From a virus: 20,364 nucleotides of DNA. Positions 1 to 16,213 of this stretch are shown here, in pieces; the stretch's first letter is position 1; each line of letters starts with the position of its first letter. Both the position numbers and the translations under genes were made by a program. Where the stretch lies: positions 1 through 20,364 of IMG/VR virus record IMGVR_UViG_3300030328_003608; one strand, given 5' to 3'. The notes beneath the pieces were generated by a model. The model worked only from the letters and a program-made list of their open reading frames with translations. It did not search any database and was not told where the DNA came from.

Positions 1-1437
1 TGGTATTGGAATCAATATGATAATACTACTACACTTAAACAAACTATTACTGGTTCTGATGGTTCTGTCTCTACTCAACAAAGAGTTATACAAGATACAG
101 GATGTGGAAGTATTAACTGTGGGTCTTTTACCAACTACACAGACACGCATATACAAGGTACGAACACACAAACAGATTTTGATATAGAAGTATCAATAAC
201 AAATACTAATAATAGAACTGGTCATTGGGGGCCAGATATAGATAATGTAACACTAGGTTTAAGTTATACTTATATTAACCCATTACCAGAAGATACACAA
301 GATATTGTAGAAGATATTGATACAGATATCGTTGATATTATAGAAGATATTCCAGAAGATTTTGATTGGGATACTGATGATTTATATTTTGATAATACAT
401 ATACTTGGGAAGAAGATATGTATTTTGAAGAAGAATATGTCATGGATGAAGACATATACTTTGAAGAATTTGAAATGGAAGAATTTGACATGGTAGAGTT
501 TGAAGAACTACCAATGTTTGAAGAGTTTGAAGTTTTTGAAGAAATGCCTATGATTGAAGAGGTATTTTTTGAAGAGGATTATATGATGGAGCCTCCACCA
601 ATGATAATGGAGGAAATATTTACAGAAGAATTTGAGGAGGATTTTACTGAATTTTTAGAAGAGACTGGCATGGAAGAAGAATTCATGGAGTTTTTAGAAG
701 ATGAAGGCATAACAGCCGAAGAATTTTTCGAAGAGATAACCGAGGAGGAGTTTAATGATGAACCTACTGCGGAATCTTTTGAAGAGTTTGAGGAAGAGTT
801 TGAAGAAATCGAAACAGTTGAAGAAAGCCCACCAGAGATTATTGAAACTGAGGAAGAAACAGTGGAGCTTGAATCAGAATCAGAAATAGTAGAGGAAGAA
901 GAAGTAGCCAAAAATGAATCAACAGAAGAAACAGAGCCACAAGAAGACGAATCCAGTAGCGAAAGCACTGAGGAGTCCGAAGTACAATCAGAAGATAGTG
1001 AAAAGCAAGATGATGTACAATCGGAAGGAAGAGAAGAAGTGGACACCAATGACAGGGTTACTGCAGATGTTGCAAAGATAGAGAGCAAATTTAAAAAGAA
1101 TTTAAAAAAGATAGCTAAACAAATAGCAAAAGTAACAAAACAAACAACTCAAAACTTAACAAAAGAGGATTTATTTTTTAAGAATAATACATTAGACGCC
1201 TATAATAAAATACAATTTTATAAATCAAAAGATATATATAAAGATACAAGTTTAGATTTATTTAATAACCAAATAGATTTAGGCGTCTATGATAAAGAAA
1301 TTTATGGTGAGATAACTCTTGCAAGTTATTCACAAAACGACCCAGTAGAAGTACATAGAGTACAACTACTAGAAGCAAAACAAAAAACTAATAGATTAAA
1401 ATTAGAATTGGAGGCTATGAAGAATGAAAATAATTGA
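1..1437 (+). CDS. Hyperacidic phage protein, C-terminal part (5' end outside window)
   Basis: The frame is open from base 1, so this is the last 478 residues of a longer protein; the ATG at 418 is internal, not a likely start. Residues 1-92 look beta-rich (many T, N, G, Y and alternating hydrophobics), as in a phage surface or tail-type domain. Residues 93-135 are Asp/Ile rich (repeated ED-I-x-D units). Residues 136 to about 355 are extremely rich in Glu, punctuated by Phe, Met and Tyr, then turn into an E/S/T/Q linker. The last 120 residues switch to Lys-rich, probably helical sequence. The next gene overlaps its end by 14 nt. No catalytic motif is seen. A virion or late protein is inferred from position at the head of the rightward block; the true function is unknown. 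Confidence 0.8.
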   Translation, partial: WYWNQYDNTTTLKQTITGSDGSVSTQQRVIQDTGCGSINCGSFTNYTDTHIQGTNTQTDFDIEVSITNTNNRTGHWGPDIDNVTLGLSYTYINPLPEDTQDIVEDIDTDIVDIIEDIPEDFDWDTDDLYFDNTYTWEEDMYFEEEYVMDEDIYFEEFEMEEFDMVEFEELPMFEEFEVFEEMPMIEEVFFEEDYMMEPPPMIMEEIFTEEFEEDFTEFLEETGMEEEFMEFLEDEGITAEEFFEEITEEEFNDEPTAESFEEFEEEFEEIETVEESPPEIIETEEETVELESESEIVEEEEVAKNESTEETEPQEDESSSESTEESEVQSEDSEKQDDVQSEGREEVDTNDRVTADVAKIESKFKKNLKKIAKQIAKVTKQTTQNLTKEDLFFKNNTLDAYNKIQFYKSKDIYKDTSLDLFNNQIDLGVYDKEIYGEITLASYSQNDPVEVHRVQLLEAKQKTNRLKLELEAMKNENN

Positions 1438-11944: not shown

Positions 11945-12051
11945 TTTCTTTTCCTTATATTTGTTAGTGCAATTTGTTTTACCATATCTTGAACCTCTTT
12001 GTCAAATAAAAGAAGTTCAAGAAAATATTTTTTTATTAATTTTTTAATCAT
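11941..12051 (-). CDS. Tiny basic protein (36 aa)
   Basis: Fills the gap between the methyltransferase and the 166-aa gene: its ATG lies in the last codons of the methyltransferase (ATGATTAA) and its TGA overlaps the next ATG. The product starts MIKKLIKKYFLELLLF, an amphipathic helix, and ends with RKRK. No good ribosome site is seen apart from coupling. Could be a real microprotein or just a leader that carries ribosomes to the next gene. Confidence 0.5.
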   Translation of the reverse strand: MIKKLIKKYFLELLLFDKEVQDMVKQIALTNIRKRK

Positions 12052-13039
12052 TTTGTAATGCTCTTATTATACTCATTCCAATAATATATGTCAATTGTGG
12101 TACAACTGCATTTCCTAACGATTTAATTCTGTCCACCCTATCGGAAATCCCATGAGCCACTCTACCCACGTTGGGTTCAACTGACCAGTTGTCTCTGGGG
12201 TTGAAGTCTCCAATAGTCCCACTGTATGAGGCAATTGCATCTGCTTCTTCTGTTCCTTTCTGTTCAAAGCATTCTTCGGGTGATGTTTGTGGTCTTGATG
12301 CTGTGGAGTTGGCCACATCGTTTCTGTATGATTCACTGCATCTCTCAGTTTCACTCCATGTCTCTCTCCCTTCTTGTTCTCCCGGTAGAATCCTTGTTTC
12401 TCCCCCACTTGAACATCCTTGGCTATTCCACCCTCTATGTCCGAAGCTGTTGGAGTTGGCCACATTCTCACTTCTTGAGAGAGGGGGGGTTTCTGCCCAC
12501 CTGATTTGTTCTTCTTTCTGGGTTTCGTTATATTGTTCGAGTCGAAGGTTGTCGGTGTCGACCATAGCGATAATGAAGACTCGGTAACGCCTGTGTGGGG
12601 CGTTGACGCTGCAAGCTGGTAAAACAACAGGTTGTACTTTGTAACCTTCGCTTTCCAAGTCAGAGACACATTGTCCGAGTGCCATCTGTGTGTTAATAAT
12701 GCCTGACACGTTTTCTCCAATAACGATGGATGGTCTTGCCTCTTTAATAATTCTAAACATTTCGGGCCAGAGATGCCTTTCATCTTCTTTACCTTTTCTT
12801 TTTCCGGCAACTGAAAAAGGTTGGCAAGGAAATCCTCCGACAAGAACATCTGTTTCGATTTCTTTTCCATTAATATCCTTTACATTTGGTATAATTGGCA
12901 CATTTGGCCAATGCTTTTTTAGTATTTTTTGACAGAATGGGTCTATTTCTGAAAACAGGGTTGTCTTGAAATACCCTGTAGCTTCCAGACCTAAATCTAT
13001 TCCACCAATTCCTGAAAATAGTGATGTAACTTTTAACAT
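12044..13039 (-). CDS. dcm: C5-cytosine DNA methyltransferase
   Basis: 331 residues with the ordered motifs of the family: I LFSGIGGIDLGL (7-18), IV GGFPCQPFS with catalytic C72, VI GENV (108-111), VIII HRRYR (149-153), and X GNAVVPQ (309-315). It methylates C5 of cytosine, probably shielding phage DNA from host restriction. The stretch between motifs VIII and X (160-300) is Ser/Glu/Arg/Asn rich and is overprinted by a second long frame (12115-12870), and its DNA is GC-richer than the neighbours, hinting at transfer. Start overlaps the primase stop by seven bases. Target sequence cannot be read from the protein. Confidence 0.93.
   Translation of the reverse strand: MLKVTSLFSGIGGIDLGLEATGYFKTTLFSEIDPFCQKILKKHWPNVPIIPNVKDINGKEIETDVLVGGFPCQPFSVAGKRKGKEDERHLWPEMFRIIKEARPSIVIGENVSGIINTQMALGQCVSDLESEGYKVQPVVLPACSVNAPHRRYRVFIIAMVDTDNLRLEQYNETQKEEQIRWAETPPLSRSENVANSNSFGHRGWNSQGCSSGGETRILPGEQEGRETWSETERCSESYRNDVANSTASRPQTSPEECFEQKGTEEADAIASYSGTIGDFNPRDNWSVEPNVGRVAHGISDRVDRIKSLGNAVVPQLTYIIGMSIIRALQND
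12115..12870 (-). CDS. Overprinted WPTP-repeat protein inside the methyltransferase gene
   Basis: A 251-residue frame shifted +1 against the methyltransferase and covering its residues 57-308. It has its own ATG with AAAGGA six bases upstream. The product is not random: it has SLTWKAKVTKYNLLFYQL (69-86), three WPTP-type boxes (LWSTP 102, MWPTP 136, MWPTP 185) and LNPTWVEWLMGFPIGWTEL at the C-terminus. I recognise this string of motifs from many phage and metagenome proteins associated with C5 methyltransferases. Function unknown. It could be translated from the internal start or as a frameshift product. The alternative is that the frame is an unavoidable shadow of conserved methyltransferase DNA. 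Confidence 0.6.
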   Translation of the reverse strand: MEKKSKQMFLSEDFLANLFQLPEKEKVKKMKGISGPKCLELLKRQDHPSLLEKTCQALLTHRWHSDNVSLTWKAKVTKYNLLFYQLAASTPHTGVTESSLSLWSTPTTFDSNNITKPRKKNKSGGQKPPLSQEVRMWPTPTASDIEGGIAKDVQVGEKQGFYRENKKGERHGVKLRDAVNHTETMWPTPQHQDHKHHPKNALNRKEQKKQMQLPHTVGLLETSTPETTGQLNPTWVEWLMGFPIGWTELNR

Positions 13040-13815
13040 ACATTAAACATTTCCTTTATTTTGTTTTCGTTATAATACTTAAGATCATCCTCAAGTATCT
13101 TAACTTCATTATCTATATAATATGATAATTTATTGGCTATGTCAAATGACTTGGTTGTTGCATCCCTATCAAGAGCAACAATAATTTTCTTGAACTTTTT
13201 TTGTAAAATAGGAATATAACTATCAGGTAAACTTGTACCCATCAAGGCTATACCTGCATATACACCTGAAACTGCACAAGCACTGGCACAATCTTCTACA
13301 AGAACGCCTACTTTTCCTTCTCCACAAATAAAAGGATACGACTTCTCACCATAAATATACCATTTAGGATATATTTGAGAGTTTAGCCCTCTCCCTATTG
13401 CACCGATTACTTTTTCTTTTTCTTTTATAAGAAAAACAATTCTATGCTGCTTAACATCATACATAAAACTTGCCTTTGCTTTTTCTTTTGCTTGTAAACA
13501 ATTATTTTTTTCTAAATATTCTTGACATTTTTTTTCTGATAATATGGACACAAAGCTTTTAGGAATAGTAAAAGGTTTAGCAGTTTCTTTTTTTTGTTTC
13601 ACTACGGTCTCATATACCTGTTCCATAGACATTTTCCCCACATGTTTTCCTTTAGCTTTGCATGATGCATGAAAACAATACCACATTAAATTAGAACTTT
13701 CTCTTCTAATAACTAATGTATTGGTATGATTACAAAATGGGCAATCTATTCTAGTATCTAATTCCCCTGAAGGAATTATAGAATTAATAATTGTATATTG
13801 TTGATTGAAATTCAT
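13033..13815 (-). CDS. DnaG/T7-type DNA primase
   Basis: 260 residues. Zinc-binding domain: C25-x2-C28 (CPFC) and C47-x4-C52 (CFHASC). TOPRIM core: EDCASACAV with E174, and VALDRDA with D216/D218. It makes RNA primers for the polymerase at 7322-9361; the helicase is a separate protein. The ATG at 13815 is the only Met before the zinc finger. A TATAAT box ends six bases before it, so the ATG would be at or next to +1 of its own transcript, and no ribosome site is visible: a leaderless start. Read-through from the upstream RNA is limited by a terminator at 13836-13875. Confidence 0.9.
   Translation of the reverse strand: MNFNQQYTIINSIIPSGELDTRIDCPFCNHTNTLVIRRESSNLMWYCFHASCKAKGKHVGKMSMEQVYETVVKQKKETAKPFTIPKSFVSILSEKKCQEYLEKNNCLQAKEKAKASFMYDVKQHRIVFLIKEKEKVIGAIGRGLNSQIYPKWYIYGEKSYPFICGEGKVGVLVEDCASACAVSGVYAGIALMGTSLPDSYIPILQKKFKKIIVALDRDATTKSFDIANKLSYYIDNEVKILEDDLKYYNENKIKEMFNVC
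13117..13145 (-). promoter_or_regulatory. Internal promoter before the methyltransferase
   Basis: TTGACATAG at 13145-13137 with 17-base spacer and TATTAT at 13122-13117, within the primase coding sequence and 78 bases upstream of the methyltransferase ATG. It shares the TTGACATAG start seen in the accessory-region promoters, which raises confidence. Confidence 0.6.
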
Positions 13816-13821
13816 AAGGAC

Positions 13822-13849
13822 ATTATAGTTTAATTAAAAAAAAAGTCAA
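13822..13849 (-). promoter_or_regulatory. Promoter of the primase operon
   Basis: TTGACT at 13849-13844, 16-base spacer containing the terminator T-run, and a perfect TATAAT at 13827-13822. The predicted first transcribed base falls on the A of the primase ATG (13815). Confidence 0.65.
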
Positions 13850-13875
13850 GGGCGTACGAAAGGGACGCCCCTGAC
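13836..13875 (-). terminator. Intrinsic terminator of the large RNA
   Basis: An 11-bp GC-rich stem (13845-13855 with 13865-13875, one mismatch, nine-base loop) is followed in the leftward direction by nine T (13844-13836). Strong Rho-independent terminator; its T-run doubles as the spacer of the primase promoter. Confidence 0.9.
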
Positions 13876-14447
13876 ATTATGGAGTAGCGAGGTACTACTA
13901 CTACTTTAGCAAACAAGTCCGACTTACCGCCATATGTACAGCTTTGGTTAGGGCGTTTCTTTTTTGCTACGCTTACAACTAACTGTTTTGCTACGAAGGA
14001 TAAACAGCAATCCGTTGGATTCAAGCCATTAACATAGTTGTAAAACTCTTAAACTTACGCTAGTACCAAAGGGTTTCTGGAATCTGTCTAGAACTCTTAC
14101 AACAGCCAACCCCATTAAGTGTCTCAGCTATGTGGTCACACTCCCACTTAACACAAGTCAATCACCGACAGGTTTGGTACTAACCTAAATTTGGGTAGTT
14201 TTATCTGCCTACGATTTCTCGCACTTCAATGGCACTACCCAAGCCAGTTAGTGAGGGGGTGCAAACCCAAAGTTTATTCCTCCCCTGCTAGTCGTGAACA
14301 AGATTCTATAGAAATCTTGAACTGTCGGAATAACACCTATATGCACTTTGTTGTCACGGTAACCCCTCATTTTTTCTAGCGTCTGTCCATTTCTGGATTA
14401 TGGAAGCCTATATTTTCAAGGTTCTCCTCAGCTAGAATATCCCACAG
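13836..14447 (-). ncRNA. Large structured noncoding RNA (about 610 nt)
   Basis: A 600-base stretch with no plausible gene and visibly higher GC than the genes around it, ending in a strong terminator. Read leftward it has many perfect long stems: 14061-14070 with 14173-14182 (10 bp), 14191-14199 with 14234-14242 (9 bp, holding an inner stem capped by a GAAA tetraloop at 14212-14221), 13973-13981 with 14035-14043 (9 bp, enclosing two hairpins, a three-way junction), 14115-14121 with 14145-14151, 14252-14258 with 14363-14369, 14274-14280 with 14327-14333, 14299-14305 with 14313-14319, and 14374-14380 with 14431-14437. A 7-bp match of 14165-14171 with 14322-14328 would form a pseudoknot. Size and phage setting recall GOLLD and ROOL ornate RNAs, but I cannot match either. 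No tmRNA, RNase P or intron core was found. The 5' end may be set by processing of the operon transcript. Confidence 0.85.
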
Positions 14448-14711
14448 TTAAGTGGAATCCTTTTCATCTATATATACAACAAAGCTATCAGCATCTTCAG
14501 GGGGACAAGAATGTCTATAACTTCCCTTTCCTCGCCAACGCCTTCTGTATGTATAGGTTCTTTTGTTTAAGTATTTTTTTACTAAACTCATGAAATGCAA
14601 CCCCTCTTCATTAAGAGGGATTCCATAAAAAATATATCGTGGATTATCAACACCATTATATTTTCGTACTGCTCTATCTTGGTGTTCTGTATCTACATCA
14701 AACGCACTCAT
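14448..14711 (-). CDS. Hypothetical basic protein (87 aa)
   Basis: ATG at 14711 is preferred over a TTG at 14714; an AAAGGTG site lies upstream. The product has an aromatic/charged first half and a very basic middle (KKYLNKRTYTYRRRWRGKG, 45-63). It is the last gene before the large RNA, whose first hairpin covers its stop codon, so a role in binding that RNA is worth considering, though nothing in the sequence proves it. Confidence 0.6.
   Translation of the reverse strand: MSAFDVDTEHQDRAVRKYNGVDNPRYIFYGIPLNEEGLHFMSLVKKYLNKRTYTYRRRWRGKGSYRHSCPPEDADSFVVYIDEKDST
14602..14619. repeat. GC-rich hairpin inside the 87-aa gene
   Basis: Perfect 7-bp inverted repeat CCCTCTT / AAGAGGG with a four-base loop, within coding sequence. 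Could be an RNA-processing site or chance; there is no T-run. Confidence 0.4.
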
Positions 14712-14859
14712 CAAATTTTACACCTTTCTGAACAAACCAGACTCTACTCCATGTTTGCCCACCTTGTCCATTATCCATACACTTTTTTCCTACTTTCATT
14801 TTATAGGAAGAACAACTAGATAAAACAAGAATAAAAAGTAATAGTAATATAATTCTCAT
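14698..14859 (-). CDS. Small lipoprotein (53 aa)
   Basis: Starts in a TAATG overlap with the 136-aa gene. MRIILLLLFILVLSSC is a textbook lipoprotein signal with lipobox LSSC (C16). The mature part is only 38 residues, with two more Cys (C27, C52) that could form a disulfide, and an aromatic TWSRVWFV strand. It should be exported and lipid-anchored. Candidate roles are superinfection exclusion, surface receptor masking or a small outer-membrane spanin; it lacks the Pro-rich body of classic Rz1. Confidence 0.75.
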   Translation of the reverse strand: MRIILLLLFILVLSSCSSYKMKVGKKCMDNGQGGQTWSRVWFVQKGVKFDECV

Positions 14860-15269
14860 TATGCTACCATTTTCTTTTGGTTAGCCTTTTGACTTGCAGA
14901 ATACTTTGAAGAATCAATTACAGGATTGCACAATGTAGGATTTACCCAATAAATATTCCTTGCTCGTTGGGCTAAGTATCTAGTAGGTGGTAATCCTTGC
15001 CTTGCTCTATCTATTTCTCTTCTCGCCATTTTAAGCCAATTAGATACATGAAGATGAATACCATAAAATTGTCTTGTTCGACCATTGCCTAAATCTTTTT
15101 GTATATTGAGATGATAAGCTGTTCCTGCCGAACCACTCTCATGAAATAAACTAGTAATTTCTTCAAAAGTAAAATCTATTTCTAATGGGTGTTCACTAGC
15201 ATTGTATGAATAGGTGGAATTTTGATTCCACCCACCATTATCTGTAGTATCATATTCTCTTGAATACAT
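14859..15269 (-). CDS. Hypothetical protein (136 aa)
   Basis: Coupled by TAATG overlaps at both ends. The N-terminus is rich in Asn, Ser, Tyr and Asp, the middle has a HLNIQKDLGNGRTRQFYG beta-hairpin-like part, and the C-terminal half is basic (ARREIDRARQGLPPTRYLAQRAR). No known motif. Belongs with the 314-aa gene and the lipoprotein as one operon driven from 16237-16265. Confidence 0.65.
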   Translation of the reverse strand: MYSREYDTTDNGGWNQNSTYSYNASEHPLEIDFTFEEITSLFHESGSAGTAYHLNIQKDLGNGRTRQFYGIHLHVSNWLKMARREIDRARQGLPPTRYLAQRARNIYWVNPTLCNPVIDSSKYSASQKANQKKMVA

Positions 15270-16213
15270 TACACACCTGCACTTTCTTTAGGTGTCACAA
15301 CAACAGCAACAGTATCGGCAAGTTTTCTTTCTGCCATATCCTGTTGTATTACACTTTGAGATACAGAAGATAAAGCCAAAGCTGTGCCTGTGCCTGTAAT
15401 TTTATGCTTAACATTTTCAGCTTCTGACCATACATCAATGACTTGCTCAAGAGTTTTAGAAGAACGAATAAGTTCTGCATATGCCTTGAACTTTTCTTTC
15501 ATCTGCTCATAGTGTTTGTGCCATTTTAGATGAATACCCTCAAGTTTATCCTGCCAAATCATAAGGACTTGGTATTCTTCTGGTGTGACTAAATGTGCTC
15601 GTTGATAACAAGAATAAGTAGAATTAGGCATAGTAAATTCAATAGATATATCATTATCTTCAAAGAATTTAGATTGATAAGTATCTATTTTATCTTTTAT
15701 ATCTCTAATTTCTTGATGATATGTTGTTGCCCTTTTACCATTGTAATCACAACCATTTTCTTCAACAAATTTGTATTTAACTACATCAATTCCATTTGCT
15801 ACCATATCCTCATAATACAGGGCAATTAAATCATCTCGATTAAGATTACCTATTTCTTTTTTAGAAGAGCCATAACTATAATGACTACCATAACCACCAC
15901 AAGCAAAGTTAGCATAGACAGACCTTTCTTTTCTAGACTCTCCACCCGTTTCTTCTTCTCTATCGGTAAACCAAAAACAAGATTCTTGATTAGTCAATTC
16001 ATATTTTTTAAGGATATCTAATTCTTCCTTTGGATATAAATTGCCTATCTTATTTTTGACGATTTCTTTTATTTGTGGAATACAGGCAAGAAACTCCTGT
16101 ATCTTTTTATTTTTTTCGTTAAGCCACTTACTTGGTGTCTTAGCAATTTGTTCCTGTGCGTAGGCATACAGTATTGGTCTACTCACAGTTTGATTTAACA
16201 TTGTTTTAGGCAT
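15269..16213 (-). CDS. Hypothetical phage protein (314 aa)
   Basis: First gene of its transcript, with a strong AAAGGGGG site seven bases before the ATG and a consensus promoter just upstream. No signal or membrane segment. Visible parts: a helical N-terminus, an aromatic/Gly/Ser patch (ANFACGGYGSHYSYGSS, about 101-117), a long charged helix (about 165-185) and another around 225-260, then an Ala/Ser/Val tail. No catalytic motif identified. As the leading, largest gene of an early operon it may be a host-takeover protein, which is inference only. Confidence 0.7.
   Translation of the reverse strand: MPKTMLNQTVSRPILYAYAQEQIAKTPSKWLNEKNKKIQEFLACIPQIKEIVKNKIGNLYPKEELDILKKYELTNQESCFWFTDREEETGGESRKERSVYANFACGGYGSHYSYGSSKKEIGNLNRDDLIALYYEDMVANGIDVVKYKFVEENGCDYNGKRATTYHQEIRDIKDKIDTYQSKFFEDNDISIEFTMPNSTYSCYQRAHLVTPEEYQVLMIWQDKLEGIHLKWHKHYEQMKEKFKAYAELIRSSKTLEQVIDVWSEAENVKHKITGTGTALALSSVSQSVIQQDMAERKLADTVAVVVTPKESAGV

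Follow-up and report, generated by a model that had tools for sequence, protein, structure and literature searches.

Folded RNA domains exchanged between phages, and a possible self-associating RNA scaffold upstream of a primase gene

The known ornate RNAs of phages are single families, each with a fixed architecture. OLE is not a phage RNA, and domain shuffling is not known in it. On a smaller scale, the leader of T4 gene 32 places an H-type pseudoknot before a phage gene. GOLLD, a large ornate RNA of phages and prophages with kissing loops, forms a 14-mer nanocage, and its internal loop covaries as a palindrome, backing symmetric pairing between molecules; ROOL, also from phages and prophages, forms a nanocage as well; OLE RNA is dimeric, and the switching of one of its loops among self-complementary variants has been used as evidence for the dimer (PMC12286853).

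The array of RNA domains described here is like GOLLD in being large, ornate, phage-borne and equipped with candidate kissing loops, and like ROOL in its size class, its multiple pseudoknots, its phage origin and its want of a known protein partner. With OLE it shares a palindromic loop that changes between self-complementary forms, and with the T4 leader an H-type pseudoknot (module A, below) that precedes phage genes in several leaders. It departs from GOLLD, a single family that often neighbours tRNA islands, in that its domains shuffle between phages; from ROOL in having exchangeable domains, no fixed architecture and no Rfam match; from OLE in giving no match to that RNA's covariance model; and from the T4 leader in that module A is a portable scaffold, with varied inserts in its loop, that serves many genes and stand-alone arrays.

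The array lies in the window, by which I mean the whole stretch of DNA analysed, a 20364-base IMG/VR record that is probably a fragment. A noncoding block at 13836-14447 is flanked there by a small ORF (14448-14714, minus strand) and by the primase gene (13033-13815, minus strand). The initial annotation had seen a gene-free, GC-richer block between these two, and so it is, with the ORF counted at 88 aa and the GC content at 0.39-0.44, against about 0.32 in the surroundings. Two ORFs within the block (64 aa on the minus strand, 62 aa on the plus) show no conserved reading frame among relatives, where matches to them are short, broken by stops and track the RNA modules; conserved protein coding, which the initial annotation had said would speak against an RNA, is not what the relatives display. 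Farther upstream of the array, proteins of 314 and 136 aa (14859-16213, minus strand) are common to many relatives and match no PHROG or Pfam entry.

No strand had been named for the RNA before. It is encoded by the minus strand, from 14447 to 13836. Folded in that sense, the whole block reaches -182.6 kcal/mol (z -2.67, with 0 of 20 shuffles as good), and the plus strand folds less well (z -1.37). Among aligned cells that depart from Watson-Crick pairing on the minus strand, 21 are G-U and nine are A-C, five of the nine coming from one doubtful pair, and this excess modestly supports an RNA of minus-strand sense. Such an RNA predicts an excess of this kind, which tells against the thought that the block works as DNA, a hairpin-rich replication origin beside replication genes that is read in single-stranded form. 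The many inverted repeats, and the adjoining primase or ssb genes, would suit an origin well enough, but the orientation of terminator and promoter is constant and many of the modules are located at other genes, and I regard an origin as quite improbable.

Could the array be a member of GOLLD, ROOL or some other large phage RNA already described? Its size, its phage origin and its self-complementary loops agree with that idea. Against it, Rfam gave no match to the window at gathering score (and nothing but sub-threshold noise at E<=10), none to 16 relatives at gathering score and none to three further arrays at E<=0.5. The covariance model of GOLLD found nothing in the window, whether at gathering score or at E<=10, nor in the relatives, and those of ROOL and OLE found nothing in either. 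The introns, ribozymes and riboswitches of Rfam likewise gave no match at gathering score in the window and 16 relatives. ARAGORN found no tRNA gene in the window, itself a fragment, and no single architecture is conserved among relatives. It is thus very improbable that a described family has been met again. The suggestion in the initial annotation that a large ornate RNA distinct from GOLLD and ROOL is present gains support from this search and from the strong covariation described below. Its wording, a possible new class, was too modest, since relatives recombine a shared library of domains without a single architecture.

Searches at the DNA level were sparing too. The whole block gave only chance matches among annotated phages; arrays and single modules found HTVC115P and, weakly, phage Greip, where the match lies beneath an annotated gene. 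Two exact-pattern scans of bacterial and archaeal genomes, which exclude close copies only, found no modules. In the open-access full-text literature searched, no description of shuffled phage RNA domains was found.

Relatives were obtained with the flanking proteins of the block as queries, which gave 64 and 25 loci, and by scanning IMG/VR with module A alone, irrespective of the primase, which gave 30 contigs, many of them at other genes. Set against these relatives (named L plus a number where they must be told apart), the window array resolves into separately closed domains in the order M1-M2-A-B-C-D, several with pseudoknots, all on the minus strand. Before them a short hairpin, X (GGATTCCACTTAACTGTGGGATA; 14438-14460), predicted from a single fold, overlaps the end of the 88-aa ORF; its stretch AAAAGGATTCCACTTAACTGTGGGATATTCTAG recurs in L095. 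M1 (14374-14437; fold z -2.05) is a closed multiloop domain, present as a shorter core with a different inner hairpin in L098 and L122. M2 (14252-14369) consists of an outer domain in which an insert (GACAGTTCAAG..CTAGCAGGGGAG) is nested. Each part also occurs without the other, the outer one in L088, L109, L120 and L121, the insert in L095.

Module A (14192-14247) is an H-type pseudoknot, UGGC-UU-GGGUAGU-GCCA...ACUACCC, whose loop contains a GAAA-capped hairpin (GCGA-GAAA-UCGU) that had been noticed at the outset and is real. Its distinct copies number 34, and their loops, 17-132 nt long, hold differing inserts. Module B (14048-14188) is a long closed domain whose closing stem covaries, in five arm pairs, or six if the related module B2 is included. 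An extra hairpin in the window's copy (14115-14151) is missing from L093, whose B is almost identical in other respects, so that the interior measures 102 nt in the one and 65 nt in the other, a difference of 37 nt. The loop UCUAGA of module B (14087-14092) is self-complementary and has variants in relatives. Module C (13969-14045) is a closed domain with a pseudoknot (GGAU/AUCC crossed with CUGUU/AACAG) and a T-arm-like loop of 7 nt.

Module D (13908-13968) is the final domain before the terminator, and its relatives hold a like position before the primase. The window's D carries the self-complementary UGUACA (13935-13940) within a larger loop of 12 nt, and as a single domain folds no better than shuffles (z -0.58). 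A small hairpin, E (13883-13907), which follows D and precedes the terminator, was read from the sequence; comparison found no support for it. The strong terminator reported in the initial annotation is borne out as an intrinsic terminator on the minus strand (13836-13875; -19.5 kcal/mol, z -5.86, nine T at its end), and the promoter-like sequence of the primase, TTGACT-16-TATAAT (13822-13849; 11 of 12 matches), overlaps its 3' end.

The space upstream of the primase in relatives is likewise occupied by conserved noncoding blocks, the set varying from locus to locus. A library of 32 elements yields 37 distinct element orders across the relatives, and by that comparison the locus is a string of folded domains drawn from a shared set, not one fixed RNA class. 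Position within the string is constrained. P, G, H and J are found only first, at the 5' end, and D only at the 3' end; D or N is usually last, preceding the primase promoter. Of 24 contigs with a relative of D, 22 place it 106-159 nt ahead of the primase start; in another it lies 405 nt ahead, behind a small gene, and in the last contig tblastn did not match the primase start, although primase sequence is directly downstream. N occupies the place of D in other phages, and is followed by F in one string and by Q in another. Middle modules may trade places, F-B in L049 and B-F in L093. Nesting is common, as in the loop inserts of module A, the M2 insert that stands alone and the extra hairpin of the window's B. 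In L088, L098, L101 and L104 some modules occupy what is probably the 5' leader of another gene, so roles as mRNA leaders fit as well.

Two further features of this space deserve record. In five relatives (L021, L023, L038, L049, L010) a small gene, encoding about 45-80 aa and equipped with a hairpin and a Shine-Dalgarno site of its own, stands between the last module and the primase; the array precedes it and a second terminator follows. Upstream of the primase in L031-L033, L044 and L046 there is a different conserved element, AGGTGTAAGCCAT..GGGTTCGTTACCTAGT..AAACGCAACGCAAAG, which contains the T-arm-like sequence GGGTTCG.

The folds of single domains in the window beat shuffles only moderately (z -0.6 to -2.4, the terminator apart), as would be expected if the stems were there by chance. 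Compensatory changes refute this. Two-sided changes occur in 12 of the 24 pairs of module F, with 97.7% of cells paired, a number reached by none of 500 shuffles, and in 11 of 17 pairs of N (0 of 500 shuffles as many). In C, counted with its pseudoknot, 8 of 20 pairs show them, 99% of cells are paired and none of 500 shuffles does as well. For D, whose two types MAFFT misaligned and of which the hairpin alone was tested, they occur in 5 of 7 pairs (0 of 500 as many), and for the pseudoknot of A in 4 of 11, with both helices represented (2 of 500 as many). Control structures slid along the sequences had 22-60% of cells paired and never matched the two-sided counts, a comparison that gives an advantage to the pair lists, drawn by the analyst on the same sequences. 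The identity of the domains also far exceeds that of the flanking genes, and chance stems in ordinary intergenic DNA are scarcely conceivable as the explanation.

Relatives and compensatory changes in several domains, both of which the initial annotation had asked for, were therefore found, and of the perfect stems it noted those in modules B and C are backed by covariation. Its possible 7-bp pseudoknot (14165-14171 with 14322-14328) fails the comparative test: the partner CCGACAG is absent from 5 of the 6 loci outside the window (at least 4 of 5 contigs) whose module B retains AAACCUGUCGG, and the pairing also competes with a local stem. Two ideas about module F were discarded as well. A hammerhead-like reading (CUGACGA..GAAA) fell because CUGAC..GUAGA is part of a covarying hairpin, and a GACG/CGUC loop contact is not retained in L097.

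Then there is the evidence that domains travel. The window and L093 have primase genes 75% identical as DNA, yet they share M2 at 118 of 118 nucleotides, A at 56 of 56, part of B at 63 of 63 and M1 at 97% of 63, the last also true of L109. The same module A is unchanged in L089, L095 and L109; L089 and L095 have no relative of the primase on the DNA fetched. Named pairs of phages have blocks 97-99% identical and primases 66-72% identical; it is these pairs that constitute the evidence, as the overall counts of block pairs (475 and 252) include some coding sequence. Identical domains in differing neighbourhoods are not explained by strong conservation alone, and the comparison establishes, at the level of sequence, that domains move between phages independently of genes.

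Artefacts of assembly do not account for this, since related modules are present in the cultured phage HTVC115P, where part of module P lies within a leader (2738-2875) and ssb (gp23) is preceded by a Q-A pair. The leaders of the SAR11 phages HTVC115P and HTVC033P (MN698247, MZ892993) differ from the window array in being short, unannotated arrays, with no D or N in the parts read. In HTVC033P (L123), gp10 and gp13 have long, structured-looking leaders, one with a CUAGCUAG palindrome.

Phages of the HMO-2011 type are marked by a family A DNA polymerase whose exonuclease and polymerase domains are separated by a partial DnaJ central domain (PMC9038755). The DNA polymerase of the window has, by Pfam, an exonuclease domain at 77-176, a DnaJ_CXXCXGXG match at 313-354 (E 4e-4, below the curated cut-off) and a pol A domain at 377-691. 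A DnaB-like helicase and the primase are also encoded, the latter 47% identical to that of the pelagiphage HTVC033P, the closest primase from a cultured phage, and 32% to that of HMO-2011. By its polymerase insert and its related primase the phage is assigned to the HMO-2011-type group, and its GC content and kinship to HTVC033P place it probably in the SAR11-infecting part. Elsewhere in the window, a 251-aa ORF (12115-12870, minus strand) lies in another frame inside a methyltransferase gene (12044-13039, minus strand), where GC is 0.48, and matches the DNA methyltransferase PHROG phrog_1008 (E 3.6e-34). Positions 1-1437 (plus strand) encode a very acidic, glutamate-rich portion of a long ORF that matches no PHROG.

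How might the array be transcribed? Nearly half of 56 relatives have TTGACA-17-TATTAT or something similar directly upstream of the array, and promoter-like sequence precedes the primase in 25 of the 56, against 4.6% in shuffles. Where a sigma70-type promoter-like sequence is present, promoter, domains, D and terminator make up what reads as a stand-alone unit. The window array has no clear promoter of its own, so there it may be the 3' part (3' UTR) of an upstream transcript. One might instead see in the array a cis-acting leader or attenuator by which transcription into primase or ssb is sensed or timed. Arrays are indeed directly followed by the primase, or by an ssb-like gene in L147 and HTVC115P (ssb gp23), and module A of L101 ends 18 nt before the primase start. 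In the window and many relatives, however, a strong terminator and a separate promoter come between array and primase, and modules are present at unrelated genes as well. I consider such a leader unlikely.

A different view is that the domains are armour for transcripts, interchangeable folded beads that block host ribonucleases and shield mRNAs, or the terminal D RNA, on their 5' side; any compact fold would serve, and recombination would be free. The starters G and J directly follow promoter-like sequence, the closing stem of P begins near the expected transcript start, the same modules precede Shine-Dalgarno sites of various genes, and domain content is variable, all as armour would have it. 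A generic bead has no need to be near-identical in distant phages, as many of these domains are, and armour leaves the palindromic loops unexplained. It is possible, if doubtful, that protection is the whole story.

Those loops are hexamers. In N they are GUGCAC, GUCGAC, AUGCAU and ACUAGU, four palindromes out of four; in D, where the window has the UGUACA type, they are elsewhere GCUAGC, GUUAAC and GUAUAC, palindromes again, though the search pattern for D imposed no such requirement. B has UCUAGA, CCUAGG and ACUAGU, plus UCUAGG, which allows a G-U wobble, and V has ACUAGU and CCUAGG. The chance that a palindrome survives each multi-base change of the loop is at most 0.067, a figure to be read knowing that the palindromes were spotted by eye before testing and that independent variants are few (four for N, three for D, four for B, two for V). 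The arrays have 1.9 times the CTAG density of the rest. Adjacent loop bases cannot pair with one another within one chain, so symmetric pairing between chains is indicated, and the pattern suggests that the loops of D, N, B and V are candidate symmetric intermolecular kissing loops. Palindrome evidence of the same kind has been used for the kissing loops of OLE and GOLLD (PMC12286853).

I propose, with a probability of about one half, that the array is a modular, self-associating, ornate phage RNA scaffold. The minus-strand RNA, terminating directly upstream of the primase promoter, would be made as a stable RNA, either on its own or by cleavage from the 3' end of an upstream mRNA. Two or more copies would join through the self-complementary loops of the terminal domain (D or N), of B and of V, giving an RNA scaffold akin in function to GOLLD, ROOL and OLE, on which the exchangeable domains might bind or exclude host factors. 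Its most likely role, though a weakly supported one, would be that of an RNA-only assembly, long-lived and produced ahead of the replication genes or together with them, which exchange of domains might tune to RNases, RNA-binding proteins or other host factors. Stated for the group as a whole, and at the same even odds, some 30 or more folded domains would be shared by marine phages and combined mix-and-match, under a positional grammar of starters, middle domains and a last domain that forms dimers, and with nested inserts, into products that are RNA-only homo-oligomers.

What evolves as a unit here is the folded RNA domain, which phages trade and put together anew in the manner of protein domains. 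If the library is what it appears to be, genetic mosaicism extends to the level of RNA domains. The same domain set among different neighbours provides comparisons by which to test what large phage RNAs do, and first experiments are feasible, because the cultured HTVC115P carries related modules. If the loops do form homo-oligomers, the library would be a natural kit of parts for RNA nanostructures, and if the host is SAR11, all this would be taking place among the most abundant bacteria of the ocean.
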